Assembly (NCBI GenBank): GCA_945923475.1
Contig: CAMELE010000019.1
Coordinates: forward strand, 1-37,796
Source: an uncultured Mollicutes bacterium
GTDB lineage: Bacteria > Bacillota_I > Bacilli_A > Acholeplasmatales > Anaeroplasmataceae
Direction: 5' to 3'
Length of the DNA stretch: 37,796 nt
Part shown: one piece after another, positions 1,941 through 37,796 of the stretch
How the letters are laid out: each line of letters opens with the position of its first letter
Position numbering within the stretch: the first letter of the stretch is position 1
Program-made: the position numbers and the translations under genes
Notes under the pieces: generated by a model
What the model saw: the letters and a program-made list of their open reading frames with translations, nothing else
What the model was told of the DNA's origin: nothing
Database searches by the model: none

Positions 1941-3005
1941 TTGATAAAATTAGATTATACTCTTGAAACTCCTGAAGAACGAAATGAATTAGTAAAAAAA
2001 ATTTTAGAGGAAAATCCAAATCCCAATGAAAAGTATTTAGAAATCCTCGCAGATTATCTAATTCTATGTATGGAGAAACAAGAAAAAAAAGAAAAGAAAA
2101 TATTAACTGATAATAGATTAATGACAGTTAATAAACGTGAAACTTCTTTCGAAGGACTTGTTTCCCAGTTAGAGAATGGTGAAGATGGTATATATAATTT
2201 AATTAATAGTGATAAAAATATGATATTTTAGCCAAAAGTTACAATTACAAAAAAAGATTTAGAAGAAATTCCTAGCTTAAAACAATTAAAAGACACTATT
2301 ACAACTTGGGAAGCAAAAATGAAAGTAGTAAATGGTAAAGATGCTTTTACTATAAAAAAAGCATTAATAGAAATGCGCAAAGATCAATATATTATTAAAA
2401 ATGCTTATCGAAAACCAATAGTGCCAGTAAAACTTACAAGATCTAAATACAAAATTAAATTAGATGAAGATGTAAAAATATTTGATGATGATGGATATCC
2501 AATTCCAGAAGGAATCTCATTAATGAATCCTGAAATTTGTTCTTGCATTTTATGTAATTATTCTCGATTAAAAGAAGATAGTTGGGATCGTTTCGAAGAC
2601 GATACTTGGTATCTTATTTATGATTTTGAGAATATTTGCGATGAAGCCTTAGCGGATTATCCTATGTTAATGCGTATTGTAGAATGTAAAATTGATGGAT
2701 TACAAAATATAGAAATTCAAAAAATTTTACAAGAAGAATTTAATATTACTCATAGTTTAGAATATATATCAAGTTTATTTCGCAATAAAATACCAAAACT
2801 TATTGCTGATAAAGCTGTTGATAAATATTTAGATTGGTATTACACAACTCAAGAAAAAGGTAAATATAAAAAATGTAGTAGATGTGGGCAAATTAAATTA
2901 GCTCATAATAAATATTTTTCCTATAACAAAACAAGTAAAGATGGATTTTATAGTATATGTAAAAAATGCCGAAATAGTTCTCGTAAAGAAAAAATGAAAT
3001 CCTAA
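1941..3005 (+). CDS. Zinc-knuckle protein upstream of terminase, probable packaging-related protein
   Basis: The gene starts at TTG 1941 with GGAGG nine bases upstream and ends at TAA, giving 354 residues when the one TAG (2229-2231) is read as Gln. Under the standard code it splits into a 5' piece and a separate 228-residue piece in the same frame. The middle part is acidic with a CSCILC cysteine cluster. The last 40 residues hold a Cys-x2-Cys ... Cys-x2-Cys zinc knuckle (CSRCGQ and CKKC) and a lysine-rich tail. A similar knuckle begins the next gene. Position directly behind the rightward promoter and before TerL suggests DNA recognition for packaging; this is inference. A transcription regulator is another possibility. 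Confidence 0.75.
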
Positions 3006-3023
3006 AGAAAGGAGAAATATTTA

Positions 3024-4238
3024 TTGTCTAGCGAAGGTAAACAATATTATTGCGAAAAATGTAATAAAACTATGGATGGAACTTAGTTTTATACATCTAA
3101 TAATTTAGATAAATATCCTAATGATGGTAAATTACCAAAATGTAAAAAATGTATAACAATGCATGTAGATAATTGGAATCCGGATACTTATCTATGGATA
3201 TTGCAAGAATGTGATGTTCCTTACATTCCTGAATAGTGGAATTAGTTAATGGGTAAATTTGCGAAGGATAAAACGAAAGTCACTGGAATGACAATATTAG
3301 GTCGTTATCTCTCTGCAATGAAATTAAATCAATGGAAAGATTATAGATGGAAAGATAGTCAGTTCTTGCAAGACTTACAAAATAAAAAAATAGAAGAAAC
3401 AATGAAGCAATAGGGATATGATATTCAAGATATTACTACTGCCATTCAACGTGCTTCATTTACTTTACCATCAGAAGAATTAAAAGAGCCGCCTCCTCCT
3501 GCGCCTCCCCCTTTAGATTTTGGGAATTCTACAGAAGATTATTTTAAAGATAAGTTAGATTTCGATGTTCCTGATTTAGGTGCTGAGCTGACAGATGAAG
3601 ATAAACGATATCTTTATTTAAAATGGGGAAAAGGTTATAGTCCTGACGAGTGGGTGCGTTTAGAGCAATTATTTAATGAAATGATGTAGTCTTATGATAT
3701 TTAGTCCGCAGGACATATTGATACATTAAAACTTGCTTGTAAGACATCATTAAAATCTAATTAGTTATTAGATATAGGTGATGTAGACGGCGCCCAAAAG
3801 ATGATTAAAATGTATGACTCTTTAATGAAATCGGGCAAATTTACTGCGGCTTAGAATAAAGAAGAATCTGGCGATTTTGTTGATTCTGTTGGTGAATTAA
3901 TAGAAATGTGTGAAAAACAAGGTTATATTGAAAGATATTATGTTGATACTCCAAATGATAAAGTAGATTTGACAATTAAAGATATGCAAAAATATACACG
4001 CACTTTAATTGAACGAGAAACTAATCTTGGCAATATGATTGATTAGGCATTAAAGCAAAACGCTAAAGAAGATGAAGAGGCTAAAGAAAACGTTGAAGAC
4101 ACAATCGTCGATGACGTTGATATGTCCATTGAAGACATTGAAAAAACTTTAGAAGATAAAGATATTGAAGACTTTAGCGAATTTTTGGATAATGAGATAG
4201 AGTTAGATATAGATGCTTTCTCTGATAGGGAAGATTAA
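3024..4238 (+). CDS. Probable terminase small subunit-like protein with N-terminal zinc knuckle
   Basis: A TTG start at 3024 has AAGGAG nine bases upstream; the frame ends at TAA, 404 residues, with nine TAG codons read as Gln. Residues 7-43 contain a Cys-x2-Cys ... Cys-x2-Cys knuckle (CEKCNK and CKKC), followed by MHVDNWNPDTYLWILQEC. A proline-rich linker (EPPPPAPPP) leads to a helical acidic C-terminal half ending in many Asp and Glu. The N-terminal pattern matches, from memory, proteins preceding TerL in Firmicute gut phages; such proteins are taken as small terminases that recognise DNA and hand it to TerL. The stop overlaps the TerL start (TAATG), so the two are translationally coupled. 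Function is likely but not proven. Confidence 0.7.
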
Positions 4239-5989
4239 TGGCGTTACAAGATTTACTTGATCTATCTACAAGTAGAAAAAAAATAGGTATTTCTGAAGAA
4301 CGTATTAATGCTGTAATGCCAGTCATTCGTAAATATACTGCCTTTTGGCGTGAATATCCAGATTTATTTGTTGATTTTTTAGTGCGAGGAACACGCACAG
4401 AATAGAAAGAAGGAGAATTTAAATTTTTCTTCTATTAGCGTGTTTTTTTAAGATGTGTAATGCGCTATCAATATGTTTATGCAGTTTTCCCTCGTGCTTA
4501 TTCTAAATCATTCTTATCAGTCATGGCATTAATGGTTAGATGTATTCTTTACCCTGGCGTTCATCTATTTGTTACTTCTGGAGGTAAGGAACAAGGTGCG
4601 AGTATTCTACATGATAAAGTTAATGAAATTTGTGATTTAATACCAAGTTTTAAACGCGAAATTGATTGGGGCCGAGGTAAGAGCCAAGAGAGTAAAGATA
4701 AAGTACGTTATGTCTTTAAGAATGGCTCTGTACTTGATAATTTAGCTGCAAGAGAAAGTACTCGTGGTTAGCGTCGTCATGGCGGCCTAATGGAAGAATG
4801 TGTAGGTATTGATGATTAGATTTTGCGTGAAGTTATTATACCAGTTATGGCTATTCCTCGTAGAGCTAAAGATGGTACGACTCATGAGGAGGAAGCAGTA
4901 AATAAATCATAGATTTATATTACTACTGCTGGCTATAAAAATACATATCCTTATGATAGATTAATTGGTTTATTAGTTCGTATGATTACATAGCCTGATA
5001 GATGTATGGTATTAGGTGGAACTTGGCGAACTCCTGTTGCTGTTGGATTACAACAGAAGACATTTATTACTGACCAGAAAAATGAAGGAACTTATAATGA
5101 AGCTTCTTTTGAACGTGAATATGAATCAATCTGGTCTGGCACTGTTGAAGACGCTTTCTTTAATGCAGAAATATTTAATAGGAATAGAATATTGAATTAG
5201 CCTGAATATGAAGCTTCTGGCCGTTCAAGTAAATTATCTTATTATATATTAAGTGTTGACGTAGGTCGTAAAGGATGCGATACTGTTGTCTGTGTATTTA
5301 AAGTAACGCCACAACCACATGGCGAGCCGATTAAAAGTTTAGTTAATATTTATACTATGAATGATACACATTTTGAAGACTAGGCTATTAAACTTAAAAA
5401 ATTATATTATAAATATAAAGCTCGAAGAATTGTAATAGATGCTAATGGACTTGGTGTTGGTTTAGTAGATTTTATGGTTAAGCCATAGATTAATCCTGAA
5501 ACTTCTGAAGTGATTCCTGATTTTGGAGTTTATGGTGGGACTCAGGATGATGCAGTTCAAGAATATAAAAAATATAAAACCAATAGTACAGAATTAGATG
5601 TATTATATTTAATGAAAGCTAATGCACCAATTAATACTGAAGCACATAGTATTACTTAGTCAGTGTTAAATTCTGGTAAGATTAAATTTTTAATTGATGA
5701 ACGAACTGCTAAATAGAAATTATTAACTACTAAAGTGGGTTAGAATATGACTACAGAAGCACGGTCTGATTATTTAAGACCATTTAGTTTAACTACTTCA
5801 TTGCGCGAAGAAATTATGAATCTGCGTGAAGAAAATGAAGGTTTAAATATAATTTTGAAACAAGCTAATAAAAGTATTAAAAAAGATAAATTTTCTGCAT
5901 TAGAGTATGGATTGTATTATATAAAAAAAGTAGAAGAAGATAAAAAGAAGAAAAAATTCCGGGCTGCTGATTGGATGTTTATGAATTAA
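4238..5989 (+). CDS. terL: Terminase large subunit
   Basis: A 583-residue protein once 12 TAG codons are read as Gln; the standard code would break it into more than ten pieces. It is the packaging motor: an N-terminal ATPase pumps DNA into the prohead and a C-terminal RNase H-like nuclease cuts concatemers. A Walker A-like loop lies at residues 85-91 (PRAYSKS) and a Walker B-like stretch at 183-187 (GLMEE). Nuclease acidic residues are visible at D341 (LSVDVG) and D401 (VIDANG). A TAG-encoded Gln falls at residue 178 (STRGQRRHG), just before Walker B. The start overlaps the preceding stop. Length is normal for the family. Confidence 0.95.
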
Positions 5990-6077: not shown

Positions 6078-6434
6078 ATGGATGCCAGTCGTGCGGAAAT
6101 TAAGATTAGAGAAATCTTAGAGGAAGCCGGCCTGAATTTTAAGATGGAATATATATTTCCAGATTTAAAAACACATAATGGTCGTCCTTTACGTTTTGAT
6201 TTTGTAATATTTGATGATGATAATAATATTGATTTTTTAATTGAATATCAAGGTAAATAGCATTATGAAGCCAGCAATAAATTTGGCGGAAAACGCGGAT
6301 TATACCAATAGCAATATAATGATAATCAAAAACGTAGATTCTGTGCTTTACATAATTTACATTTAATAGAAATTCCTTATACAGAAGAAAATTTAATTTC
6401 TTATGATTATATAATGCGAAAAGCTGGATATTAA
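6078..6434 (+). CDS. Homing-type nuclease, Vsr/PD-(D/E)XK-like fold
   Basis: A 118-residue protein starting at ATG 6078 with AAAGGAG upstream and ending at TAA; it has two TAG codons. The core reads RFDF (D41), IDFLIEYQGKQHY (E56, Q61, H62) and later LHNLHLIEIPY. This is the pattern of small phage nucleases related to Vsr and EDxHD homing endonucleases, whose usual motif is LIEYDGxQHY. The Gln of QHY is encoded by TAG (6258-6260), which is direct support for TAG = Gln. Such genes often move between phages and sit between packaging genes, as here between terL and portal. DNA cutting is inferred; target site unknown. Confidence 0.85.
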
Positions 6435-6451: not shown

Positions 6452-8137
6452 ATGGAATTAGAAAAGGAAGAATTAACCAGAAATGAATAGATACATAAAA
6501 AAGGTTTTGACATAACTGGAGGGACACGTGAATATTCTACAGTTGGCCCCAATGAATATAAAAAAATTAAAGTCGGTGTTAAGACATTAGATGATGCTGT
6601 TTTAAATCTTGGGTCTTTTAAATGGGATACTTATGGTCGCCGCAATGAAAAATATAGTCGTGAACGTATTTACACTAAGCCTATGGTTATGGATGCTTTA
6701 ATTCGTAATGATGTTCAAGAATTGCGAAGAATATCACGTTTCTTTTTTAGAGTAAGTGGTATTTATCAAAGAGTATGTAATTATTTTGCAAATATGTATC
6801 GTTATGATTGGGCTATTGCTATTTAGTCTAATAATACTGATGGTTCTGCTGTTAAAGATATTAATGAAACAAAAGCAGTAAAAGATTTCTGGCGAATTTT
6901 AAATTATTTAGATAATTCTTATATTAAGAAAATTTGTGGAGATATGGCTCTTGAAGTAATTAAATGTGGAGCTTATTATGCCTATATTGTTCCATCAAGT
7001 ACTGGCTTAATTCTATAGCAGCTTCCTATTGATTATTGCCGTTCGAGATATTCAGTAGGTAATTTACCTGCTATTGAATTTGATATGAGATATTTTGATA
7101 CTTTTGTGGATACTAATTATCGTAATAGAGTATTAAAATTATTCCCTGATGAATTTACAATAGGTTATCGTCTCTATAAAGCTGGTAAACTTTTACCTGA
7201 TGTAGCTGGTGATAATACTGGTAGTTGGTATTTATTAGATCCACAAAGCACTGTTAAATTTTCTTTAAATGGTACTAATGATATTCCATTATTTGTAAAT
7301 GCTATTCCTGCAATTTTAGATTTGGATGCTGCACAAGATTTAGACCGCCGCAAGCAAATGCAAAAATTGTTAAAAATTTTAGTTTAGAAATTACCGCTTG
7401 ATAAAAATGGTGATTTGATTTTTGATATTGATGAAGCTCGTGATATTCATAATAATGCTGTTGAAATGCTTCGTAGAGCAGTAGGTGTTGATGTATTAAC
7501 TACTTTTGCTGATGTAGATGCTATTGATACTTCTGATAAAAATACTTCTGCTACTACAGATGAATTAGAGCGTGTTGAACGAACTGTATATAATGCATTT
7601 GGCGTTTCGCGCAATTTGTTTAATACAGATGGTAATATCGCTCTAGAAAAGTCTATCTTAGATGATGAATCTACCATGCGTAATTTAATTTTGCAATTCA
7701 ACATATTTTTTGATAGAATATTATCAGTCCTGAATGTTTAGAAAAAATATAATTATAAATTCTATATGTTAGAAACTACATAGTATAATTATAAAGATTT
7801 ATCTAAGATGTATAAAGAGCAAACTTAGATTGGTTTCTCTAAAATGTTACCTTAGATTGCTCTTGGACAATCATAGAGTTTTATTCTTAATACAGCTCAT
7901 TTTGAAAACGAAGTTTTACATTTAAGTGAAATTATGATACCTCCTCTTATGAGTTCTACATTAAATGGTGAAGATATTTTGGGTAAAAAAGATTAGAATG
8001 GTTCTAACACTTCTCAAAATAAAACAAGTGGAAATGCTACTGTGAAAACAGAAACTAAAGAGGGTGGCCGACCAGAAAAAGCTAATGATGAAAAGAGTGA
8101 AAAAACAATCGCTAATCGTCAAGCTGCTGGTAAATAA
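6452..8137 (+). CDS. Portal protein
   Basis: A 561-residue protein from ATG 6452 to TAA 8137, with ten TAG codons read as Gln. It sits directly downstream of the terminase module, the usual portal position, and forms the dodecameric ring at the capsid vertex through which DNA passes. Visible features are the N-terminal IYTKPMVMDALIRNDV stretch, a central domain with VRNAFGVS-like text (VYNAFGVSRNLFNTDGN, typical of portals of Firmicute siphophages) and a polar C-terminal tail containing GGRPEKANDEKSEKTIANR. The ribosome site (GAAGGTGAAG) is modest. Spacing to the following gene is 12 bases. Confidence 0.9.
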
Positions 8138-8149: not shown

Positions 8150-9712
8150 GTGAAACATACAAGTGTTAAGTTAGATACTCCTGTTGAGTTTATTAATATC
8201 ACTAAAATCAATCCTTTAATTTCTAAATGTTAGATTAAAGTTTGTTATGTTGGTGATAAACCAAACCGCAATAGAAGTGTTATAACAAAAGAAGTTGCTA
8301 AAGATTTAGCATAGAGCTTACCAGGTAGCCCAATTGTTGGTTATTACAATGAAGCTAATGGAGATTATGAAGAACATAATCGTGTAATTGATATTTCTAA
8401 TGGTAAATTTGATATAAAAGACACTACTGTTCCTTATGGCTTTGTAGACTTAGGGGCAAAAGTTTGGTTTTAGAAATTCTTAGATGATGGAAAAAACGAG
8501 CATGAATATTTAATGACTGAAGGCTATATCTGGACAGATATTTATCCAGAAAGTAAACGTATTATTGAAAAAGGCAATAATCAATCTATGGAATTAGATG
8601 ATAAAAAAATTAATGCGTATTGGTCGAAAGATAAGAATGGAATGCCCGAATTTTTTATTATAAATGAAGCGATAATTAAGAAACTTTGTATTCTTGGAGA
8701 AGATTGTGAACCTTGCTTTGAAGGAGCTAATATTACTGCTCCTACGATGCATTTCTCATTTAGTGATAAATTTAATGAGCAATTATTCTCTATGATGAAA
8801 GATTTAAAAGAATTATTAGAAGGTAAAGGAGGAACAAAAGTGTTCACAAGATATAATGTGGAGATTGGTGATTCCATTTGGACTTCTCTTTATTCTTATA
8901 TTAAGGGCTTCGGAGCAGGTAATGCAATGATTGAAGAAGTTTGCGAAGATAATGGTAATTTATTTGCTATTGTCAAGGAAGATGATAAGTTCGTTCGTTT
9001 AGATTTTTCTATGGAGAATGATACTTTCACTCCTGGCGAAGTTTCTGAATTAACTGATTATTCTGTTTCTGATAATCCTCAATTCGATCCTGAAAAAGTT
9101 GCAGAATTTGCGAAAAAAAAGGACGAAAAAGATAAAGACAATAAAGAGAATAATGATAATAATAAGGAAGATCCTTCTAAAGAATAGCCAAAAGATGGCG
9201 AAAAGAAGGACACTACCGAAAATAAACCTACTGATACTTCTGATGAAGAAGGAAAGTCAACTAAGGATGATGAAGAGGAAAAAAAGAAAAAGAAAGCTAA
9301 GTACTCTTTAGAAGATGTAGTTGAATATGGTTTATTAAAAGATGAGTATGCCGCACTTGAGACTAAATATAATGAATTGGTTGAAAAGCAAGCACAGCTC
9401 GAACAAGAACTTGCTTCTTTAACTCAGTTCAAGACTGAAGCTGAAAGAGAAAAGAAGCAAGAAATGATTAATAGTTTCTATATGTTATCTGATGATGATA
9501 AGAAAGATGTTATTGCTAATATTGATACTTATTCATTAGATGATATTGAAGCAAAGCTTTCTATTATCTGTGTTCGCAATAAGGTCAGTTTCGATACTAA
9601 TGAAAAGAAAGAAAATGACCCACTTACATATAATATTAATAATGATGTAAATGAAGATAGCATTCCTGCTTGGATTAAGGCAGTATAGGATGTTGCGAAA
9701 ACTATGGAATAA
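8150..9712 (+). CDS. Prohead protease-scaffold fusion
   Basis: A 520-residue protein from GTG 8150 (AGGAGG upstream) to TAA, with five TAG codons. Residues 1-225 look like the phage prohead protease that matures the capsid, including an SMELDDKKINAYW stretch and an LCILGEDCEPCFEGA motif typical of this family. A highly charged low-complexity linker (about residues 317-385, Lys/Glu/Asp/Asn) follows, then a coiled-coil-like segment (EYAALETKYNELVEKQAQL) as in scaffolds. Position between portal and capsid genes fits. An internal start at 8840 probably makes the scaffold part separately. Catalytic residues could not be assigned with confidence. Confidence 0.8.
8840..9712 (+). CDS. Nested scaffold protein, internal in-frame start
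   Basis: Inside the protease-scaffold gene, AAAGGAGG (8825-8832) precedes an in-frame GTG at 8840 by seven bases, an ideal spacing and the strongest ribosome site inside this gene. Translation would give a 290-residue protein beginning VFTRYNVEIGDSIWTSLY (Val as start Met), covering a small folded domain, the charged linker and the coiled-coil. Nested scaffolds sharing the protease C-terminus are known in lambda (C/Nu3) and many siphophages, and supply excess scaffold over protease. It contains only two TAG codons. Existence of the product is inferred from the ribosome site. Confidence 0.6.
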
Positions 9713-9736: not shown

Positions 9737-10513
9737 ATGCTTTTAAAAGATATGCTTAAAGACCTAAGCGGCGTATCTGCTGTTAAGGGCGGCTACGTTG
9801 AATATGGCTATGGTCAGGTTGAGCCTAATCATTTAAGTGCTCAGCGCACTGGTCAGATTTATGCTCAATTACCTGCTAACAGAAATATCCAGCTTCTTGA
9901 AAATGGCCAGTTTGTTAAGTATGACTATGCTGCTGGTGAGCTTGGTGAAGTTAATTTCACTGGCAAGGGCGAATGGATGTTAGTTTATAATGAAATTAAA
10001 CTTTATCGTGAGGAACAAGCTGATTGCGAATTTGCTATGCGCAAAGATGATTATCAGGCTCGTTATTACAGCCCCTATGATGGCAAGCAGGAGATTGGTA
10101 CACGCTAGGCTCGTTATTTAAATGGTAAGGATGCCGAAGGTAATACTTCTATTACTATTACAGATAGCCAGGGTGTACAACATACTTATGAGTATGATGA
10201 TGTTACTGCTGGTCCTGATATTCGTGAACTCTTCTATGAAGAAGATCCTTTACATTTTGATGGTCCTTATGAGGCCCGTAGAATGCCTGCTGGCACTAAT
10301 ATGGTTCCTCGTGTTTTCAAGACCAATGTTGGTGATATTTTTACAACTAATACTATCGCAGAAGCCACTCTTGCAGTTGGCGATATTTTAAGTCCTCGTG
10401 CTGCTGATGGTATGCTTTCTAAATCTGGTGATGGCTCTATCCAATGGTAGGTTGTCAAGGTTTATGAAATGCCTGATCATCAGAAGGGCGTTAAGATTAT
10501 GCGAATCGCGTAA
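9737..10513 (+). CDS. Capsid-associated protein, probable decoration or head protein
   Basis: A 258-residue protein from ATG 9737 (AAGGAGG upstream) to TAA, with two TAG codons (10106-10108 and 10448-10450). It begins MLLKDMLKDLSGVSAVKGGY and is rich in Gly, Tyr and acidic residues without membrane segments. It lies between the scaffold and the major capsid gene, where head decoration or accessory proteins are usually encoded. Codon use is richer in CAG and GGC than in the packaging genes, suggesting high expression. Assignment rests on position; a head-fibre role is an alternative. Confidence 0.65.
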
Positions 10514-10530: not shown

Positions 10531-11667
10531 ATGTTAGATAGAAAAAATCTTGTTCAATTAATGAAGACTGTCGCTAAGGCTGATCCTTCTACTCCTACTG
10601 CTTACAGCTTTAATGGTGAAAGTCTTTCTTATGATGCTCTTAATGAAACTCTCCGCAGAGAATTAAATGAACTTGCTGGAACTTATTCTTTATACCGTGA
10701 AAATAAGAACCTTATTTTCTCAATGATTGAGGAAACTATTGATGAAGTTCTTCCTAAGAAAGTTGAAGAGCAATATAATCAGTTTGCTGAAGTTAAGACA
10801 TTTAGACAGGGCGACAAGCCTATTTTCCGTAGAAAGTTCAGCAACAATACTCGTGCAAAGCAATTCATCACTCGTGTCGGCCTAGCTGGCATCTATGAAG
10901 TATTCAAGCTTGGTAAGACTGAAGAAAGCTTTGAAGTCCGTACAAGTGCTATTGGCGGAGCTGCTCAGATTGGTTTTGAGGAATTCCTCGATGGTCGTGT
11001 CGATTTTGGTGTTGTCACCCAGATTGTCATGGAAGGTATGGATGAACTTATCTATAAAGAGATGGCTGGTGCTTTAAAGGCTTCTATCAACCAGCTACCT
11101 CCTGCTAACCGTTTAGTTGCTAATGGTTTTGATGAACCCGGTTTTGATAAGTTACTTATGATTGCTTCTGCTTATGGTACTCCTACTATTTATTGCACTT
11201 ATGAATTTGCTGTTCGTATGATTCCGAAGGATGCTTGGCGTTATACTGAAGCTATGAAAAATGAGCTTTGGAATACTGGTCGTCTTGCTTCCTATAAGGG
11301 CTATAAAGTTGTTATTCTTGAGCAGGGCTTTGAAGATGCTACTAATGAAAAGAAAGTTATCGACCCAGGTTATGCTTGGATTATTCCTACTGGTGCTGAT
11401 AGTAAGCCTATAAAGGTTGCTATGGAAGGCAATACCATTGTTGATGAATATACCAATTATGATCGTAGCCGTGAAATTCAGGTTTATAAGAAGGTTGGAG
11501 TTATTGCTATGTTAGCTAATAACATCTGCTGCTATTGTGATACTGAACTTCTTGGTGATATGAAGACATGGCATCTTGATGGTGTAACTGGTAAGGTCCG
11601 TGACTATGCTGGTCAGATTACTGGTTCTCATGATACTATTGATGGCGGTAATGAAGATAAGCCGTAA
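10531..11667 (+). CDS. Major capsid protein
   Basis: A 378-residue protein from ATG 10531 (AAAGGAG upstream) to TAA 11667. It follows protease/scaffold and is of the size and composition of an HK97-fold capsid protein: helical N-terminal region, a segment FRQGDKPIFRRKFSNNTRA resembling the extended E-loop area, and a mixed C-terminal domain. It forms the capsid shell. It has no TAG codon: all eleven Gln use CAG (eight) or CAA (three), unlike its neighbours. A strong terminator follows at 11703-11744. HK97 fold is inferred from context and pattern, not from a structural match. Confidence 0.88.
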   Translation: MLDRKNLVQLMKTVAKADPSTPTAYSFNGESLSYDALNETLRRELNELAGTYSLYRENKNLIFSMIEETIDEVLPKKVEEQYNQFAEVKTFRQGDKPIFRRKFSNNTRAKQFITRVGLAGIYEVFKLGKTEESFEVRTSAIGGAAQIGFEEFLDGRVDFGVVTQIVMEGMDELIYKEMAGALKASINQLPPANRLVANGFDEPGFDKLLMIASAYGTPTIYCTYEFAVRMIPKDAWRYTEAMKNELWNTGRLASYKGYKVVILEQGFEDATNEKKVIDPGYAWIIPTGADSKPIKVAMEGNTIVDEYTNYDRSREIQVYKKVGVIAMLANNICCYCDTELLGDMKTWHLDGVTGKVRDYAGQITGSHDTIDGGNEDKP

Positions 11668-11766: not shown

Positions 11767-12333
11767 ATGAATAAAAAAATTTTAATGGTTACTAATAGAA
11801 GTGCTGGAGTAGTTGTTTATAATATTCCTGAAGAAGGCATTCGCAGAGAATTTACACCTGGAGAAACTAAGAAGATTCCCTTTGAGGAATTAGAGAAGCT
11901 TGCCTATCTTAGCGGAGGCCGCACTTTAATGGAAAATTTCTTAAAGATTGTGGATACTGAAACTACAGAAGAATTAGGTATTCATACAGAACCTGAATAT
12001 TATTTAGATGACGCTGGAGTTATTAAGCTTCTTACTGAAGGAACTCTTGATGAATTCCTTGACTGTCTTGATTTTGCTCCTATTGGAGTTATTGATATGA
12101 TTAAGAGTTATGCTGTATCTCTTCCTATGAGTGATTACAATAAGCGTAAAGCTCTTAAGGATAAGACTGGATTTGATCTTGATCGAGCATTAGCCAATAA
12201 GGAAGCTGAAGCTGCAGATGATGAGCAAATTACTCCAAAAGCTCCTGAACGTAGAGTAAAGACCGAAACTAAGCCTACAACGCCTCCTGGCCGTAGAACT
12301 GCTCCTCGTTATAACGTTGTAAAAGAAGGTTAA
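11767..12333 (+). CDS. Neck/connector-region protein, family function unknown
   Basis: A 188-residue protein from ATG 11767 (AAAGGAG upstream) to TAA. The N-terminal part (MNKKILMVTNRSAGVVVYNI ...) looks like a small beta domain, followed by FTPGETKKIPFEELEKLAYL and a helical region (FLDCLDFAPIGVIDMIKSYA). The C-terminus is a basic, Pro- and Arg-rich tail. Proteins with this pattern are known to me from Firmicute phages right after the capsid gene, without an assigned role. It has no TAG codon, like the capsid gene before it. A head-tail joining or capsid-associated role is inferred from position. Confidence 0.65.
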   Translation: MNKKILMVTNRSAGVVVYNIPEEGIRREFTPGETKKIPFEELEKLAYLSGGRTLMENFLKIVDTETTEELGIHTEPEYYLDDAGVIKLLTEGTLDEFLDCLDFAPIGVIDMIKSYAVSLPMSDYNKRKALKDKTGFDLDRALANKEAEAADDEQITPKAPERRVKTETKPTTPPGRRTAPRYNVVKEG

Positions 12334-14241: not shown

Positions 14242-14262
14242 AGATGAAGGAGAAATCGGAGA

Positions 14263-18257: not shown

Positions 18258-18286
18258 TTGATTTTGGAAAATTTTTTTGTTATAAT
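18258..18286 (+). promoter_or_regulatory. Promoter for the tail assembly chaperone and tape measure region
   Basis: TTGATT (18258-18263), a 17-base spacer and TATAAT (18281-18286) with TG one base before the -10. A leader of about 70 bases follows, with an imperfect A/T stem around CTCCGAC (18315-18322), then AAGGAAGTGAG and the GTG start at 18363. Confidence 0.75.
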
Positions 18287-25000: not shown

Positions 25001-28000
25001 ATTAACATGGATAATACTTCTGCAGTTAATGCATTACAAGGTCTTCAAACTGCTTTAGGTAACACTACTGGTGAAGCTGGTCCACTGGCCGGCATATTAA
25101 GTAGTATTTTATAGACCAGTATGACTCTTGATTCTTCTCAAATTCAAACTTTAGTAGATTTTTTAACAGATTTATTTAATGCTTTACAAGGTGATACAAG
25201 TGCTTTAGAGAATATCGCTAGTCAAGGAGCTAGTCAATTAACAAATGCTGGTATTGATATCACAGGTATGGGTCCAGGAGAAAATGAATGGACTAACATT
25301 ACTACTAAAGGTCCGTCAGGTGGAGGAGGAGGCTCATCTAAAAAGTCTACTGCTGATATTGGTAAAGAGATTCAAGATGAATTAGTGAAAACTAAAGAAA
25401 AGAAACGTGATCGTCTTGAAGCTTTACGTGAGGGAGCTAATCCAGAAGACTCTGCTAAATATATTCAAGAAGAAATAAAATTATTAGAAGAAGAGCAGGA
25501 TATTCTTGAAGATTAGATTAAATCTTGGAAAAAATTACTAAAACTTAAAGTAGAAGAATTTAATAAAGATCATCCAGAGTTTGAAATAAAACTTACTGAT
25601 GACGGTGAAATTGCTAATGCTTCTGAATTATGGGGTCAAGTTTGGGCAGAATATGAAAAAAATGTCGAAAATGGAATGAGTAAAGAAGACCTAAATGAAT
25701 GGTTTACTAAAATTAAAAATGGTCTTGACGGTCCTATGAGTATTCAAGAGCGTATTGATGAAAATGTTGCTGCAATTGCTCAGAAAGAAAAAGAAGCTGC
25801 CGAACTTGAACTAGAAGCCATTACAAAATAGATCGATTGGAAAGTTAAGTAGATTGATTTTTAGATTAAACGTCTTAATTATTATCAAGAAAAACTTCTT
25901 AAATAGGCTCATGGTAATAAACAGACTATTGAAGCAATGCTTGAAGGATTTGCTTACCAAGAGCAAGAAATGTTATAGCTCTTTGATAAAGGTGCCACAT
26001 TACGTTAGGGTATTGATGAGTTAAATGCCGCAAAAGCTAGACACCCAGGATATGAGCAGATGTTCGATGAACAAATACTTGAATACCAAAGTGATTTAAT
26101 TGATGTTAATGAGGCCATTCTAGATTTACGTAATGATATTGAAGATTTAGTCTAGAACGTTTTAGATTTGGCACTTGATGAAATTGATAAGTAGATAGAA
26201 CGTCTTGATACTTATACATCAATGCTTGACCATCTTAATAATATTATTGATTTGTCTGGCCGCTCAATGCTTGATATGGGATTAAAAACTTAGATTGGTG
26301 CTACTAAAGTAGAAACAATGTTAGGCAAAATGAAATCCTTAAAAGGTCAAATGGATGGTTTAACTAAAGCCACTAAAGAAGCATAGGCCGCTCTTGCTGA
26401 TCGTTAGGCTGATGGAGATACGTCTTCTGTAAAATTCTGGGAAAATCAAGTTGAAGTATTAAAACAAGAAACTGAAAAAGCTTCTGATGAATTTTTAGCT
26501 TCTTGGGAAGAAACCCTTGAAGCCGCTTAGGATTTATTTGAAATGCGTGTTGAAATGGCTGTTAATATATTAAGTAATGCTCTATCACCATTTGAAACTC
26601 TTGAAGATTTCCAAGATAAATATGAAAAGGCAAAAACCGTTAATGAAGAATACCTTGATGATGCTGAACGTTTGTATGAGTTGAATAAATTAAATCGTTA
26701 GCTAAATTTATAGTTGGCTGATGCTAATGACCTTTTAGCTAAACAAAAACTTAGAGACATTTAGCAAGAGATTCACGATCTTCAGGCCGATGGCGTCAAG
26801 ATGAGCCAATATGACCTTGAATACTTATAGAAAAAATATGATCTACAGCTTGCTGAGATTGCCCTTATGGAACAGTAGAATTCAAAAACTTCAATGCGTT
26901 TAGTGCGTGATGCCGCAGGTAACTGGACTTATGCTTATGATGCAGATGAAGAAAAAATTGAAGATGCTACATAGAAATATGAAGATGCTGTTCATGAATT
27001 AGGATAGCTTAGCAAAGATTATATTAATGACGTAAGCGAATAGCTAATATAGAATCAAATTGATTTTAAAGAAGCCTTACAAGATCTTGATAAGAATTCT
27101 GCTGATTATTCAAATTAGTTATTATCATTACAAGAATATTATGTTGAGAGACAAAGATATTTACTTGATGAATTAAATAAAGGTGTTGTAAATAGTGGAT
27201 TAACATTCCATGATACTCTTTATGGCCAAATGACTGATTTGTATGATTATAATGATGCTTATATGCAATTTGTTAATAATTCTAATACAACTATTACAGA
27301 ATTGCAGACTAACTATAAGGATTGGCAAAAAGTTGTTGAAACAGCGATGGGAGTAGCTGGCACTTCTTGGGATAATTTTGGCACTGATATGGGCGGCACT
27401 CTTGATAGCCTTGAAGAACATATTCAAAGACTATGTGATGAAATTGAAGAACTTGTTAATGTATTAATGGGTTATATTTCTCAATCTATTGGAATGGTTC
27501 TTGATTGGGAATAGAAATATTCTAAACGTACTGATGAAGAACTTGCTAAAAATGAATAGTATATTGATGGTAATTTCGTTGGCGGCGGAGGTGGAGGCGG
27601 TTATAGTGATGTTGATATGCAAACTGACTTCACTGCTTTAGCATAGCGTTGGGCTGCTGGAGAGCGTAATTTAACTAATTATAATGGAACTAAAACCTAT
27701 AATAGTTTAGAAGAAATAAAAGCTGATTTAGATAAAAAATTAGATGCTTTTGAAAAGGGTGCAGATATATTATTCCAAGGCAGTGGTGAAGCATTTGATG
27801 ATGAAGCCTATGAAAGTGTTTATAATAATATTTATTAGGGTACTTATAAACGTAATGGCAACAATTATGGTATGAGATCTTATCCTAATGCTACTAGTAA
27901 TTCAATAGTCGATAAAGCTAGTAATTATTTAGGAGTTAGATATCGTTGGGGCGGTACTGATGCAGGGTATGGTCTTGATTGTTCTGGTTTAGTTTATAAT

Positions 28001-28696
28001 GCTTTAAATGATGCAGGAATACCTGTACCAAGAACTTCAGCACAAGGCTATAGAGATATGTCTAAAGCAATTAAAGAAAGCAGTGTTAAGCCAGGAGATC
28101 TGGTATTTTTTGGTTATGGTAATACCGTAGACCACGTTGGTATTTATGCTGGCAATGGATAGATGATAGATGCTCCTGGAGCCAAGGTTCAATATACTAA
28201 TATTGATGAAAAACGAGATAGACTTCTTGGATATGGTAGACTTGGTAATACAAATTATTCTTCTAGTGATACTGCGGCTTTAATGGATAGACTAGGGTTA
28301 TCTAGAAGAGGCGGAGCAGCCTCTGGAGCCTATACTGGTGATTGGGGACCCGGTTAGGGCATAGGTATTGATAATGGTAAGATTATTAAAGTTCATCCAA
28401 AAGAGTTGATACTTAATAAATCTGATACTAGAAATATACTTCGTGCAGTTGATATTGTTCGTAATATGAATGATTGGGTAGATAAATAGGTTTAGTAGAT
28501 GTCTAGTATAAGCTCTTCTAAATTAGATAGTTTATTTAATTCTGCTATCCCAAGATATGAAACTCAACCTATTAAATAGGAAGTTACTATCCAAGCTGAT
28601 TTCCCAGGAGTAACTGACCATTATGAAATTGAAGAAGCATTATCTAATCTTAGCAATAATGCTGCTCAATATATAAGTGCAAATAGATCTAAATGA
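19001..28696 (+). CDS. Tape measure protein with NlpC/P60 peptidoglycan peptidase
   Basis: A 3,231-residue protein from ATG 19001 (AAAGGAG upstream) to TGA, containing about 100 TAG codons, the first at codons 20 and 23. It sets tail length and aids DNA entry. A TP901-type tape measure core lies near residues 165-370 (LDRALTDIKIVTEDSTG). A hydrophobic segment is at about 975-1000. Long helical/coiled-coil stretches, notably about 2110-2850, are joined by Gly linkers near 2107 (SGGGGGSS) and 2860. An NlpC/P60 domain spans about 2958-3080, with catalytic Cys2994 (LDCSGL) and His3045 (DHVGIY). The peptidase would cut host cell wall at infection. This is very long for the family. Confidence 0.95.
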
Positions 28697-28741: not shown

Positions 28742-31700
28742 ATGGCTTATAATAGAAAAGAAGAATATTTAGCTGTAGTAAAATAGCCTAAATAGATTAC
28801 TGATGAATTATTAGAGACTATTGATTATATTGCACAAGCACGGGATGCCGAGTTGTCTTTTGATAAAACTATAATTGCTGAAATTGTAAGCCTTAATAAT
28901 GCAGATACTGGTGAGTATTTTGTTGAATACTAGAAAGGTAAATTTAGAGCTTATGCTCCTATTGGAATTAATTATACTTATTCTAAAGGAACTAATGTTT
29001 ATGTAAAAATCCCAGGTGGAGATTTTACATAGAAAAAAACAATAGAAGGAAAGGTTTCAGCGTCTTCTTATACAGAAGAAGAGTATGAAGATTTATCTCA
29101 ATAGGTTATTGAAGTAAATGAAATTCATAGTGATGGCAATGAATATGGTATTTTGGCATATGCACCAGAAGGTAATACTTACTATGAAAAAGTAATTTAT
29201 AGTAATGAAAAATTAGAAGAAAATTCTATTTTTACTAGTTTAATTAGTACATATCCTAATATCATGATTTCAGCGGATTTTAGGACTTAGTTTTATGGCA
29301 TTATGGTTGCTGGTAATTATGGTTTAAAAATAGAATTTGAAGAAAAAGATACTGGAGTTATTTTTACTCGTCGTTTAGATATTACTAATTTTTCAGGTAG
29401 TATTTATAACTATGAAGTATTTTCACCTTAGTATGCTATTTATAATTTCCAAGGAATTAATTTACTTGGTGTAAGAAAAATTACATTTTTCCAAGAACGG
29501 TTTATTGATTATGATAAAGTATATAATAGTAAAAATGAGTTAATTCAAACTTATGATGAAGATCCAAATATTTTTTGTAAAAATATAAAACTTTGTTTTG
29601 TAGATTTGCAAGATACAACAAAAGATTTATATTATGTAGGCATAAGTGCTCCTCAAGGTTTATCATTAATATATGATACAGATTCTATTGTCTTAAAAGG
29701 TGTATTTTATTATGCCAATAAAGATATATTAGATAAAAAAAATTGTGTTTGTTATTGGTATAAATAGAATCCTGCTATTTTATCTGGTGATGAAAAATAT
29801 GATAAAATTGCAGGGCCGGGATGGGAATTAATTAATGATAAGACAAAAGTTAATTTTAATGAATTAACTGTTTCTGGAAAAGATGTTTATCAATAGATGA
29901 GATATAAATTAGTAGTAGTTTATAATTCTTCAGTCACATTAGATAAGGATGTAAGAGTTGTAAAATATTATAATGAACGTTTTACAATAATACGTAATGA
30001 TGTAAGTGATACAGAAGTTAAATTAGAAATAGTCGATGGACGTGAAAAAACTGAAACGGCAGACTGGTATGTTGATTTTATGGATGGTTCATATGTTGCT
30101 TTAGATAAAAATGTCAGTTCTATTGATGTATCTAAATATTTAGATTATGGTACTGTAATGTTTTATACAGTTAGTTTATTAGAAGACGGCAATTATGTAC
30201 CATGTGAATATAAATTAACTAATTATCAATCTGATATTCCAGTAAGAGTAATATTTAATGGTAATGATACTTTTTAGTATGATAAAAATAATAGTATTAC
30301 TGTAGATTAGTCAGAATCAGAAATGATTATTACTCCTACTATTACAGTTAATAAAGATAATGTAGGTATTAAAACAGTTACTTGGTATTCACCTGATGGA
30401 GGTTAGTTATTTGAATACGCTACTACTAAGATAACCAATTCAATGATTTCTAGATTATGGGTTAATCCAAAAGATAATTCAGTACATTTTAATATCCGGC
30501 AAAAACGTATTGCTGGTTATACTAATAATACCTTAATTTTAAAAGTTATTACATTAACTGATAAAGAGTATTATTTTAATAAAACTATTTATTTTAGTAA
30601 ATAGGGTGAATATGATTTAAACGGCAGAGATTATACATTTATAATTAAATAGTGTGATGAAAATGGAAATGAAATTTCTAAACGGCCACTAAATAAAATT
30701 GGAGATAATTATAATCCTATTTATTTTAAAGCTGAATTACGACTTGATGGAGAAATTATTACTGCTGATACTAAATATAAAGATGAAGAAGGAAATGTAC
30801 TAGGTAGTTATAATTTAAATTTAAAACGTACTGATATTCATGTTTCCAGCGAAAAATTAACTGATACTATATATAAAGTAAATAGCTTTACTGAAGATAA
30901 ACAAGGACAATATTTTATTAAATTTAGTCTTACAGTTGGCATTAAAGGAAAAACTGAGGGAACTAAAGTATTAAATTATTGGTAGCCTATAATGGTCAGT
31001 GAAAATATTGATATTAATAATATAAAAGAAATAAGTATTCCTGATAGAATTACTTATGATAGTTCTGGAACAGCAAGTTATCATTCGGTAAATGCTATTT
31101 CATTTATTTATTATTGTAATAGAGTAAATGTATAGTTAATTGGGCCTTATAGTTATTCTATGACTTCTAATTTATTTTTATACCCATTAGAAGAAAACGG
31201 TTAGAGGACTGGGTATTATAAATTAATCCCTACCTCTACTTTTGGCGGAGCTTATTTCGCTGAAGAAACTGATACTGTAAACACATCTCCTATGGGGGCT
31301 ATTTATATTACTATCCCAACTGATAGGTATGGAGATAATACTAAAAGGTATTTAGTTTATCCAATAGTAATGTTAATAGAACGAGATGGAAATGTTAGTG
31401 ATGTAGAAGAAGATGATGGTACTGATATTCCAGTATTAGATGAAGAAAACCCAGAATTTACTAAGCCCATAAAACCTAGCTTTTCTCACTAGGGCGGTAA
31501 GTATGATTAGATAGCTAGGCCATAGGAAAATGAATAGAAAGGATATTTGGGTGGAAGAACTTATATAGGAGATGCTTGGGAAAAACACCGTAAAATTCCT
31601 ATCACTAATCCTGTAGAACCTACAAAATATTCGACACAAAAAGTACGATCTTTAAAAAATGAAATAGATACTAGCGGTTATGTGTCTGGATTGTATCAAT

Positions 31701-31951
31701 ATGATAATGATGATATCCCTACTAATATTTTGCGAGCAGATGGATTAGTTAAATTAGGAGGAGATAAACTAACTATTGATATTGATGGTAATTTAACTTT
31801 AAATGAAAATACTCCAAGTAATATATTAACTATAGCAAAATTATTAAATGAATTAACTTCTAATGTAGATTTTAAATAGGAATTAATTAATAATATAGTT
31901 CCTCCACCTTAGAAGAATATTAAAATACGTAATTGGTATATTGAAGAATGA
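28742..31951 (+). CDS. Large tail/baseplate protein, function unknown
   Basis: A 1,069-residue protein from ATG 28742 (AAAGGAG upstream) to TGA. It holds about 23 TAG codons, with the first two at codons 15 and 18. It is mainly beta-like, with many Tyr, Asn and Asp residues, in repeats of domain-like blocks, and ends in a segment GLVKLGGDKLTIDIDGNLTL before a short helical tail. It follows the tape measure gene, where distal tail and baseplate proteins are encoded. No catalytic motif was found. A baseplate or receptor-binding component is likely from position only. Confidence 0.7.
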
Positions 31952-32057: not shown

Positions 32058-35000
32058 ATGGCAACATCTACAATAAATGTAAATAGAGTATATCCGCCAA
32101 TTGTAAATAGCTCAATACCAGCATATTTAGCTACTGCGGAATCTTTAAATATAAATTTTTCTTTGCCTAAATCGTTGAATTATGATGATGTAAAAAATAT
32201 TTCAATAAAATTTAGCCAATAGTCAAATAATAAAAGTGTTGTAAATACAGATATTTATTATGATGGAATTATTTATATGGAAAAGCCTACTACCTCTACT
32301 AATGGAATATATACAGTCACTGTAAAGAATTCTGATATAAAATTAGGAGATACCATTGGGTGGGTTTCTAATACTTTTTATAAAATTCAAATTCGATTTG
32401 GATATAGTAAATTAGATTATGAAAAAAATAAAATTGCGTTTTTCAAATGGAAAAAAACACAAACATTAATAAATGGATTTTCAGAATGGTCTAATGTTAT
32501 AATTACTAAAGCAATAGAAGAACCTATAGTAAATATCTTAAATAATAAAGAAATAACCAATCTTGATGTTGGTTTTATATTAACTAAAAGTGAAAATGTA
32601 GAAACAACTAGATTTCCTAAATTCCAGGGCGGCTACCATTGTGCGGCCGAAGAGCCTATGGATAAATATCGTTTTAGACTATATGAGGGAGCTTATAATA
32701 GTTTAAATTAGCCAACTCTTGACCCTTATCTGTCTAGCGGATGGTTATAGTTTAATGGAGGCGGCCAAGATTATTATACAGGGTTGGTTGAATATAGTTT
32801 TAATAGATAGTTAGATTATTTAGGTCATAAAACTTATTCTGTCGTTTTAGACGTAATAACTGCTAATGGCTATTAGAAATCTTCTGAATTTTATAATTTT
32901 ACAATTACTGAAAGTTATTTAAAATAGTTAGAGTCTTTAGTATTTATTATTAAGGATAATACTGGAGATACTACAATTTAGCAAAGACTATTTAACACAA
33001 ATGAAGTTAGTTTTGAAACTTATAAGAGTTATTTTAATATCGAAGGTGAAAATCCTACCTATATTAGAGGATATTTTGATAACTGTGTTGAAAATGGAAT
33101 AAATTATCAAGCTGGTGATATTGTTTATAGGACAGGCATTGTTGGTATAAATGCTGAAGAACATATTTTATCTCGTGATACCAGAGTAAAAGCAGTTGAG
33201 AATTTTACTCATAATATTCGTTCTGACGAGAATGCCAGTTTAGAAATTTATATAAAAAATAATCCTTATAAAGTAACAGAACATACCATTGATACTACTA
33301 TTACTGGTGAAAAAATAGAATATGATAAAGTAGTTTTAAAATATCAACCTCTTGATGGAACTTTTATTTTATCTAGGGCTTGTGAAAAAGATAATTATAC
33401 TCAATGGGAAGATATTGCTCAATTCGATTGGTATAATGAATCTAATTATGATAATGAATTAACATTATTATATGAAGATTTTACCATTGAGAGTGGAGTT
33501 AAATATAAATATGCTTTACAAAAGAAAAATTTAGCTGGCCTTAGAAGTGCTCCTAAATATGAAGCATCTGATATTGATACTTCGCCGGCACATTGGTCTA
33601 ATTTTTAGTATAGTTATATTTATAATAATGGTATTCAAGTTCGTTTAAATTTTGATTGCAAAATAAATAGCTATAAACATACTACTCTATTTTAGAAATA
33701 GGATAGTTTAAATTCTAAATATCCTATTATATTGCGGAACGGTCTTGCACATTATGCTGAGTTTTAGTTAGGTGCTAAGATTTCTTTACTTAGTGATGAA
33801 GATTCTTCTTTCTTGATGCGTAACGATACTAAGGGTGGATATTATCACAGTTGGTATGGTGATATAGTTATTTCTAAAGATAAATATATAGAAAATTTTA
33901 CACGAGATTTACAAACGCCTTATAATGATAAATTAACATTAGGTCAATATACAAATATTGATGCTTCTGTATTTAATACTTCACCAACTAATAATAATAT
34001 TTATATGGAACGCATTTATCGTCATTGGGTAGAAGAATTCCTTAATGATGGTGGATATAAATTATTTAAATCAGCAACAGAGGGCAATCATATTATTACT
34101 TTAACTAATGTCTCTTGGACTCCACAAGCTTCTTTAGGAAGAATGATTTATGATTTTAGTTCTACAGCTTATGAAGTAGCAGAGTTTAATTGTGATAATA
34201 TTAAATTATATAATATTAATCCTTTAACAACTTTATCTAATAATTCTAAGTTAGCTATACAAAATGCTAATACTAAAAATAAAGTAGTTATTGGTTAGGT
34301 GGCTAGAACATTTAATGGCCAATTAGATAAAGAAGTAAATGGAAATTCTTTAAAAATTATTTCTAATCCTAAATTTAATGAAAAATATGATAATATTTAT
34401 GAAGCTATTAAATTATAGGAAGAAGTTGAAATTAGTGAAGAAAAAAAATATAAATTAATGAAAGTCCGTTCGATTTGGGTTGAGTAGTATCCTAAGTTAA
34501 GTTTAAAAAATAGGATTGAGTATTTAAAACATCAAAATGGTCTATCTATGATTGAATAGTTAGAAAATGCTGTTGAATTATTACGATGTGAATAGTTATT
34601 AAAAGAATACGAAAAAAATCAAACTAACATAATAACTATGATAATTAATGGCAAAGAAATTTCTATGATGCCTAGCCGTATATATCATATTGATGATATG
34701 AATTTACAATCTATGTATTTAAAATTTACTCGACCTGTTTTAATTAACTATATAGCTGAAATAGAAGAAGAAGATTATTTACAAATGGTAACAGTAGCAA
34801 CCCGAGAATTTGTTCAATGGGGGCAAATAGGAGGAGTATTTACTGATACTAAAGATATATTAGATAATCATTAGTTTTTTAGAAATGATGATACTAATAT
34901 AGTTAATGAGGATTACAATTATAGTTTGTATTCTACTCGAAATATTATGGAAGTGTTGAAAGAAAAGATACATACTTCTATTTTAAATGATTATAGTGGA

Positions 35001-35477
35001 GAAAAAATAAATTCTTCTTTTGAAATTTTATATAATAAAATAAATGAGTTTTTAGATAAGATAGATGATGACACAGATTCTATTGAAAATTTGTTAATTG
35101 AAGGAACTGAATTATTAGAAGAATATCGTCCGCTATCTGGATTAGTTTTAAATGATTAGACTGATGCTTGGATGAATGGTTCAAATCAATTGGTAGTTTA
35201 TAATTTTAATGGTATTGAAAGCCTAGAAATTGAAGCTGACGCTAATACAGATATTGTATTTGGCAGAAACAATGAAGTTGATAGTAGTACTGGTTCTATT
35301 TCTCCGGCCAATGAGGGTAATCATATTCGAGTTGGGCCAACAAATAAAATAGTATTAAATCCTTTAAAAAGCACAATTAAATCATTAGAGTTTGCTCGTC
35401 CTTCTTATGCTATTATTAATTATAAAGCTGTTTCTTCCTTAGAGCTAAAAGGATATATTAATACAAATGAGGAGTAA
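32058..35477 (+). CDS. Large tail/baseplate protein of Firmicute phage type
   Basis: A 1,139-residue protein from ATG 32058 (AAAGGAGG upstream) to TAA, with about 19 TAG codons. The N-terminal part (VNRVYPPIVNSSIPAYLA, then FSLPKSLNYDDVKNISIKF) and the internal SKYPIILRNGLAHYAEFQLG are patterns I recognise from large tail proteins of long-tailed gut Firmicute phages, next to the baseplate hub gene. It appears multi-domain, beta-rich and fibre- or baseplate-like, with a helical segment near residues 800-1000. Its precise role (receptor binding or structural spacer) is not known. Six bases separate it from the next gene, whose ribosome site lies in its last codons. Confidence 0.75.
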
Positions 35478-35482
35478 ATAAT

Positions 35483-37796
35483 ATGAGAGAATATTTGACT
35501 GATTCAAAATTCTTATCTATGTTAGATGAGATGCGTATAAAAAAACATTACGCTAAAATTACTGTATTATCATTTGTAGATGAAAAACCTTTGCGTGAAA
35601 TTTAGGGAATAGCTACGGCTGGATCTGTTACTGTTAATGGACAAGCTGCATTACGTCGTACAATAAGCTTAACAGTAAGTGGAATAGAAAATGAAAATGA
35701 TATAAATAATATTGAAAATATAATTTCAATAAATAAAAAAGTAAAGATAGAAGTAGGGCTTGAAAATCCATTTGAAGATTATAAAAATTATGGAGATATT
35801 ATTTGGTTTCCTCTTGGTACTTATGTAATTAATCAAGCCACTACCTCTACTACTGCTTCTTCAGCAAATATTTCTATTTCAGGCAAAGATAAAATGTGTA
35901 TGCTTGATGGAACTTGCGGAGGTACATTACCTTCGGCGGTTACTTTTCATGAAACATAGTATGAAGATGATAACGGAGATATTTTTATAGAACAAGTACC
36001 TATATTTACTATTATTAAAGAATGCGTAACACATTTCGGTAAAGAACCAGAATAGAATGTTATAATTAATGATGTAGATATGACAGCTAAACTTAGTACA
36101 AAATATGTAGGTCAAAACCCTATATGGTTTTCAAAAGATTATAAAAGTTTTGTTATTAGCGAAAATGCACCTGAAGATGAAAATTTTTTATAGCATAAAT
36201 TTATTTATGGACAAGATGTTGGATACCAAGAAACAGATTTTACTTATCCCGGAGAATTGGTATTTTCTGCTGGCGATACAGTAACTTCTGTTCTTGATAA
36301 AATTATTGAATCTTTAGGCAATTATGAATATTTTTATGATTTAGATGGTCATTTCATATTTTAGCAGAAAAAGAATTATTTAAATTATTATTATACTCCA
36401 ATTACTTAGATTAATGATAATTATTATATTAAAGCTTTTTCTGACAGTAAGTATTATTATACTTTTATTGATGCTAAAGATGCTTTATCTTATTATAATA
36501 GCCCTAAATATGAAAATATAAAAAATGATTTTATTGTTTGGGGCGATAAAACAAATGCTAATGGGGTTACTAAGACTATCCAATATCATTTGGCTATTGA
36601 TGAAAAACCACAAATTGATTTAGCTAATTAGTATATGTGGGATATTACCAAAGGCAATGGAGATCATGCTTATTATTTATTTGAATATGAAAAAAATAAT
36701 TATAACTAGACCCCTGAACAAAAAGCTATTGAAATAATCTATACTGAAAATCATAGTGAAATTACTGATAGTTCAATAGAAACAGCCATTAAGAAAGATA
36801 TAACAAATAATATTTTATAGAATTATTCTTTTTATAATGGTGATTAGTTTATCTTGTATTATAAGGTTATTTTTTCTGACTAGATAAGATATTACAAAGT
36901 AGTATTATTAAATAAAGAAATTATTGATTTTATATATCTTGAAGATTTAACTGATACTATTGATTTTACTTATTTAGCTTTTGGAGTTTATCCTAAGAAA
37001 GATGAAGAGGATGAATCAGATGATAGTAGTTCTTCTGACAATGAGCCGATAGATCATCCTGACAAACCCAATGCCCCTGGTTTAGATCCAGGCTTTGGTA
37101 TTCCTGACTCTTGGCATAAAGGTACTTAGGAAGATAAACAAAATTAGTTAAATCCTGATTTTAATGTAGATCCAGATGGATCTTCTAAACCTCCTAATGA
37201 TTCTGATGATAAAAAAGATGATACTACAAAAGTAAAAAATAAAGAATTTTATTTAGTATAGAAAAGAATTATAGATAATGTTGATGTTTTAGGATATTAT
37301 AATAAAAAAGGCGAATGGATATAGATTTTTGAATTATCAGAAAAATTAAATTTAACTAATATAAATAATTTAATAAATAAAGTAAAATAGAATTATTATT
37401 TAAAAATTATAAAAGATATAAATTTTGATGAAATTAATAAAGAATATGATTTTAATTTTATTAATCAAAATAATATTTTATTAGTTTCAAGCACTGGTTT
37501 ATTAATTTATAAATTAAACTCTTATGATTCTAAAGGCAATAAACAAGAATACAATTATAGTATTCCTGATAGTTATTCTGCTATTAAAGATTTAGAAAAT
37601 AAAACATTAATATCAGAAGAAGAGCATAAAGAATTAGTTAAAGTTTTATTAGAATATTATAAAACAAATAAAGATGATCTAATAGATGATATTACTTTAA
37701 TTTACAATTATACAGATATAAATGATATTTCTGGCGATAACTCATCTGGTTCTGATAATAAAAAAGGTAGTGACTTACTTCTTCCATTCTTAGATC
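35483..37796 (+). CDS. Baseplate hub / Tal-like protein, partial at right edge
   Basis: At least 771 residues from ATG 35483 (GAGGAG upstream) to the window edge, with about 16 TAG codons. The N-terminal text MLDEMRIKKHYAKITVLSF, the REIQGIATAGSVTVNGQAAL stretch and DIIWFPLGTYVINQ are typical of gp27-like hub or tail-associated (Tal) proteins of Firmicute siphophages, which close the tube tip and carry fibres or lysins. An acidic, Ser/Pro-rich low-complexity stretch (about residues 510-585) looks like a flexible insertion. The gene continues beyond the window, so any C-terminal lysin domain cannot be seen. Confidence 0.75.

Follow-up and report, generated by a model that had tools for sequence, protein, structure and literature searches.

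The stretch of DNA examined here (the window) is the entire contig CAMELE010000019.1 (hereafter C19), 37,796 bases long with 30% GC, from a metagenome-assembled genome (MAG) of 2.45 Mb in 118 contigs that is attributed to an uncultured Mollicutes bacterium. It holds the late gene module of a large siphophage-like gut phage, in which the codon TAG reads, by homology, as glutamine (Gln). TAG reassignment in phages is not new in itself, because use of code 15 by phages is already established. Under table 11 the window yields only short open reading frames (ORFs), the longest of 378 amino acids; with TAG read as Gln, about 23 collinear, nearly gap-free rightward genes appear, encoding up to 3238 amino acids. 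PHROGs matches ran across the window (sigma factor, terminase large subunit or TerL, HNH endonuclease, portal, virion structural, tape measure and tail proteins), and Pfam and NCBIfam searches added little to them. The late genes are as follows, with their in-frame TAG counts.

1941-3005, + strand: sigma-factor-like protein (phrog_5767, E 2.4e-52); 1 TAG; TTG start at 1941 with GGAGGT upstream
3024-4238, + strand: conserved late protein (phrog_3314, E 5.7e-55); 9 TAG
4238-5989, + strand: TerL (phrog_2, E 1e-20; tblastn to annotated terminases); 12 TAG
6078-6434, + strand: HNH / homing endonuclease (phrog_9084, E 1.3e-26); 2 TAG
6452-8137, + strand: portal protein (phrog_2739, E 2.3e-77); 10 TAG
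8150-9712, + strand: conserved head-region protein (phrog_3313); 5 TAG
9737-10513, + strand: protein in the scaffold/protease position, which suggests its function (phrog_35301); 2 TAG, 4 CAA, 9 CAG
10531-11667, + strand: probable major capsid protein, assigned by position (phrog_4088); 0 TAG, 3 CAA, 8 CAG
11767-12333, + strand: small conserved protein after the capsid gene (phrog_30998); 0 TAG
12356-15587, + strand: five connector / tail-completion genes at 12356-12967, 12951-13253, 13246-14241, 14263-14853 and 14850-15587 (phrog_3853, 31155, 6123, 4051); 28 TAG
15667-16764, + strand: virion structural protein, probably tail tube (phrog_2729, E 1.3e-53); 0 TAG, 3 CAA, 6 CAG
16970-18250 and 18258-18890, + strand: two genes between tube and tape measure; 18 TAG
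19001-28696, + strand: tape measure protein with C-terminal NlpC/P60 domain (TIGR01760, E 2.8e-33; P60 matches), frame open from 18980; 99 TAG, TGA stop
28742-31951, + strand: large tail-region protein; 23 TAG, TGA stop
32058-35477, + strand: large tail-region protein (phrog_30026); 18 TAG
35483-37796, + strand: tail protein truncated by the contig end (phrog_32343, phrog_1887); 16 TAG

The rightward set contains 246 in-frame TAG codons beside 251 CAA and 49 CAG; across its roughly 11,900 codons neither TAA nor TGA occurs internally. The preliminary description of this DNA had counted about 240 TAGs by hand and proposed that TAG is sense and TGA still a stop; re-calling the genes on that basis bore it out, giving a collinear, intact set with TAA and TGA as stops. 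TGA ends 14263-14853, 19001-28696 and 28742-31951, in the first case within a TGATG at 14851-14855 that overlaps the next ATG. The tape-measure frame has 99 TAGs and neither TAA nor TGA, and the other two frames there hold 139 and 261 TAA. The longest open run was 3243 codons in the real sequence, as against at most 249 in Markov-1 shuffles of the window. That nearly every gene is broken under table 11 would also be expected of a decayed prophage or of assembly errors, with the TAGs as nonsense mutations in dead genes. However, TAG is the sole in-frame stop, the frames and protein families are intact, and 129 TAG positions are common to G001, a separately assembled relative, so that decay is scarcely credible.

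The amino acid encoded by TAG was sought in homologues of the late proteins, with TAG masked in the query, and 144 window TAG columns had homologues. Over all relatives the sense residues in these columns were Q 1731, E 391, K 261, N 185 and S 173, alongside 723 TAG. In standard-code relatives, defined as those with no or almost no in-frame TAG, Gln filled 226 of 487 cells (46%), the next residues being K 43, E 43, D 30 and N 27. This rate is equal to that at ordinary Gln columns (382 of 798, or 48%, at window CAA/CAG columns) and tenfold over the background of 4.3%; the cells are not independent, as relatives share ancestry, and the pattern recurs in each relative taken singly. TAG is also exchanged with CAA and CAG between the window and its nearest relatives, G001 and G002; in G001 (84.8% amino acid identity) the window TAGs correspond to TAG 129 times, CAA 35 times and CAG 9 times. 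The base following TAG, compared with that following CAA/CAG, showed no clear pattern. Alignment with homologues at the TAG columns had been named beforehand as a check on the proposed table 15; the residue found there is Gln and not another, which, with the codon exchange and the Gln-type tRNA described below, upholds the assignment.

No suppressor tRNA, and no Rfam match, was found in the window, as the preliminary description had also noted. For the phage as a whole the statement does not stand, since a tRNA with a CUA anticodon lies on a sister contig of the same bin, C10 (60,564 bases), which was read over its first 20 kb and over 45000-60564. The first 20 kb of C10 match G001 at 89.1% (G001 58.8 to 81.4 kb), and the window matches it at 89.5% over an adjoining stretch (G001 13.9 to 51.8 kb); C10 and C19 are, on this evidence, quite probably one phage. 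The C10 CUA tRNA (58673-58747, - strand; Rfam 37.9 bits) is not called by ARAGORN. Its T-loop is GGCAGCA, where TTCRANN is usual, and it has U1 opposite C72, G73, an encoded CCA and a short variable region; in its close relative from G003 the T-loop reads GTCGGCA. The tRNA array of C10 contains, on the - strand, a ROOL RNA (L051:14608-15194, 321 bits) and a RAGATH-33 RNA (L051:13361-13473, 140 bits). ROOL occurs as well in L212 (G012) and L185 (G014), and the tRNA array of G012 has a partial match to OLE RNA (L212:11294-11383, - strand; RF01071, 52.9 bits with a gathering score of 50, positions 436-595 of 616). In ORFs of at least 150 amino acids within C10:45000-60564 (L051:1-15565), CAG occurs 63 times, CAA 34 and TAG 14, a bias towards CAG that sets this part apart from the remainder of the phage.

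CUA tRNAs were found more widely. C1 (163,874 bases), which is a further phage in the same bin, has one of 90 nucleotides (nt) with a 21-nt variable region and no encoded CCA. Directly after it, at 1205-1151 (L006:1151-1205, - strand), lies a putative hepatitis delta virus (HDV)-like, theta-type ribozyme, matching RF02682 at 26.1 bits (E 0.012), which falls short of the gathering score of 44; beside the C10 tRNA no such ribozyme was seen. The gut phage phAss-1 has three CUA tRNAs, one of a long form similar to that of C1, and those of G003, G007, G012 and G014 have a short variable region. In G013, which is recoded and has no called CUA tRNA, ARAGORN calls an intron-containing tRNA-Ser gene at G013:95888-96185 (+ strand; L178:15888-16185). 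If CTCT is joined to the AAA beyond the intron, and the intron is taken to end in G, the product has a complete anticodon stem with the loop CTCTAAA, and also U1 opposite C72, G73 and CCA. This tRNA, 76 nt when spliced, thus appears to be split inside its anticodon by an intron of roughly 220 nt, which we infer to be group-I-like, worded so because the Rfam group I match is weak (18.6 bits, gathering 50). The ends of the G014 and G013 tRNAs were taken from flanking sequence, and ARAGORN trims both differently. No CUA tRNA was found in G008, a standard-code relative of 192 kb with 37 tRNAs, and a relaxed CUA-tRNA scan of G001, G002, G005 and G018, whose records have no tRNA arrays, gave chance hits only.

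For bacterial glutaminyl-tRNA synthetase (GlnRS), as known from the E. coli enzyme, the identity elements include G73 and a weak 1-72 pair. Every CUA tRNA found here carries G73, and its 1-72 pair is weak or open; the phages' tRNA-Gln largely share these features, and most other phage tRNAs do not. The long, type II-like variable region of the C1 tRNA and of one phAss-1 CUA tRNA could be taken to mean that TAG stands for a different residue, for example Tyr, Ser or Leu. These long forms nonetheless keep G73 and the weak 1-72 pair, the variable region is short in the tRNAs of C10, G003, G007, G012 and G014, and Tyr, Ser and Leu are far behind Gln at the TAG columns, which makes a different amino acid very improbable.

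Phage and bacterium were binned together, so it might be supposed that the bacterium itself uses code 15 and that the phage merely follows. Yet in a set of 31 further contigs from the bin the coding density is 88% with table 11 and 89% with code 15, TAG ends 96 of their 522 ORFs (18%), and the bin has two release-factor-family genes (PF00472), on C17 and C33 only, which were not told apart. The bacterial contigs use TAG as a stop, in the standard code, and there is very little likelihood that the reassignment comes from the bacterium. The host is assigned by binning only, which does not prove it, and relatives were binned with Clostridium, Clostridiales and Treponema MAGs. A phage-encoded release factor 2 (RF2) or GlnRS had earlier been suggested as a lead, and it was not substantiated: PF00472 is absent from 13 related records, most of unknown completeness, and a GlnRS above the curated cut-off is found in the bacterial part of the bin (no GlnRS search was made of the phage records). 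The simplest path would use the host's own GlnRS for charging and have the tRNA compete with host release factor 1 (RF1), because the tRNA ends are of Gln type and the bin has a GlnRS, two release-factor-family genes and TAG stops. The phage would make the CUA-anticodon tRNA encoded on C10, the host synthetase would charge it with Gln, and the charged tRNA would outcompete RF1 at TAG.

Recoding of the whole late region, as the preliminary description had it, holds for most late genes. It does not extend to 10531-11667, 11767-12333 and 15667-16764, which have no TAG, and 9737-10513 has only two. The three TAG-free genes contain 21 Gln codons (Fisher p = 3e-6 vs the rest of the window). Among recoded relatives, the ratio of TAG to Gln is 0.02 in the scaffold-position, capsid and after-capsid genes (31 relatives) and the tail-tube gene (24 relatives), and 0.17-0.66 in other genes; the relatives are not independent, and the depletion extends to about 49% capsid identity. 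The share of CAG in CAA plus CAG follows the same partition, being 66-78% in the scaffold-position, capsid and tube genes, 43% in the small after-capsid gene and 5-27% elsewhere. In standard-code relatives the corresponding values are 85-90%, 56% and 18-42%, and the CAG preference is thus independent of recoding. The phAss-1 capsid orthologue has 15 CAG, no CAA and no TAG. Selection for fast, accurate reading in very-high-output genes is the likely cause of the depletion: genes for very-high-copy products (capsid, tail tube and the scaffold-position gene) would be kept TAG-free because TAG is probably read more slowly or more leakily than CAG. A statement of TAG avoidance in high-output genes was not found in the literature searched, in which Borges et al. 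2022 was not covered, and no claim of priority is made.

Recoding also reaches genes on the early strand, in C10 and in relatives, at a lower rate; in C1, G001 and G002 this strand has 4.4-7.0 TAG per 1000 codons, as against 13.6-20.6 on the late strand. This denser late strand, together with the avoidance of TAG by the highest-output genes, would fit an ambiguous TAG, where partial readthrough times the late proteins and gives truncated and full-length forms. On the other hand, TAG positions are evenly spread along genes, and a 3232-codon tape measure with 99 TAGs would demand very efficient reading of each. The TAG-free capsid and tube genes argue against TAG as a timer of all late proteins, and ambiguous reading is, on balance, unlikely.

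The capsid and tail-tube names used above rest on position and PHROGs, because the structural models were of low confidence (mean predicted local distance difference test scores, pLDDT, of 52.8 and 53.6) and the capsid model had no significant structural match in the PDB. With Foldseek, the low-confidence tail-tube model had tail tube proteins among its best matches (E 1.6e-3), and a PDB sequence search with profiles of both proteins gave nothing useful. Orthologues of the probable capsid protein occur in phAss-1 and Enterococcus phages. Positions 1-1883, which lie to the left of the late genes, hold short genes on both strands, of which 1143-1580 (- strand, 145 amino acids) has no TAG and no NCBIfam match.

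The annotated relatives of the window, most of them phages of Bacillota, are large siphophages (Geobacillus E3, Enterococcus VRE9/EF1, the Lactococcus 949 group and phAss-1); in IMG/VR, TerL relatives were found at 55 loci and capsid relatives at 20. In a 30-row TerL tree, for some rows of which the code labels are based on fragments, the recoded label needs six changes, and branches with good support require at least five of these. Among the recoded members lie two standard-code ones, L133 (G008) and L075, and standard and recoded members are mixed at 67-73% TerL identity to the window. By this tree the code state has switched several times in the clade, as is known at short distances in crAss-like phages (PMC7886860).

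The nearest described system is phAss-1, of the proposed genus Phassvirus (OQ749652; PMC10607447), likewise a large gut siphophage that reads TAG as Gln, in TerL and the tape measure among other genes; it has CUA tRNAs and a tRNA array, the same order of late genes as the window from TerL to the tail tube, and a TAG-free capsid orthologue. Its TerL and capsid are 41% and 49% identical in amino acids to those of the window, however, and its tape measure and tail genes lie elsewhere; judged on these differences, the window is a different lineage and not a member of Phassvirus. Crass-like code-15 phages (PMC7886860, PMC9523058) share TAG as Gln mostly in late genes, CUA tRNAs, short-distance switches and a standard-code host, and Gln at TAG was found by mass spectrometry in two of them (PMC9523058). 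They are an unrelated lineage, whereas the terminase and portal of the window are SPbeta/949-like. In Lak megaphages (PMC8346664) TAG was likewise assigned to Gln from terminase alignments, and most Lak genomes have a CUA tRNA; these phages differ in their size of about 540 kb and in reportedly encoding RF2, with no release factor found in the 13 related records here. Theta (HDV-like) ribozymes beside phage tRNAs (PMC10879173) resemble the arrangement at the CCA-less C1 tRNA, although the Rfam match there is sub-threshold and the C10 tRNA, which encodes CCA, has no ribozyme seen beside it.

Several points weigh against this account of the phage. C10 and C19 have no end overlap (nor was any found among C19, C10, C45 and C1), and their union rests on equal divergence from G001 and order along it. 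Gln makes up less than half of the TAG-column cells, the remainder being K, E, D, N, S and T, as at ordinary Gln columns, and the evidence throughout is sequence alone. G010 and G011 (records of L064 and L079, each over 170 kb) are recoded, with TAG in 0.5-0.7% of aligned codons, and have no tRNA by the Rfam model and no suppressor by a CUA-tRNA covariance model, so that the suppressor is not always visible. With these points weighed, we regard as highly probable the combined explanation of a code-15 siphophage-like late module, read with the C10 CUA tRNA, charging by host GlnRS and competition with RF1, in which high-output genes are kept TAG-free.

In summary, what is new beyond the preliminary description is the TAG-free state of head and tail-tube genes, the recoding of early genes, the C10 suppressor and the uneven distribution of code states among relatives. 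Standard scanners can overlook suppressor tRNAs, as with that of C10, which has an unusual T-loop and is missed by ARAGORN, and that of G013, with its apparent anticodon intron. Among phages predicted to use table 15, a CUA tRNA was found in just 52.4% (PMC11210395), and it has been suggested that divergent suppressors escape detection (PMC7886860). A tentative possibility, which we consider rather doubtful, is that the code switch is set by maturation of the suppressor tRNA (ribozyme release in C1, the intron in G013), with high-output genes kept suppressor-independent by the partition of TAG. If true, degenerate or split suppressors would explain why a suppressor is detected in just about half of code-15 phages. 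TAG avoidance together with CAG preference provides a sequence-only readout of the cost of reading TAG, and the mixed-code clade is a good set for the study of code switching.

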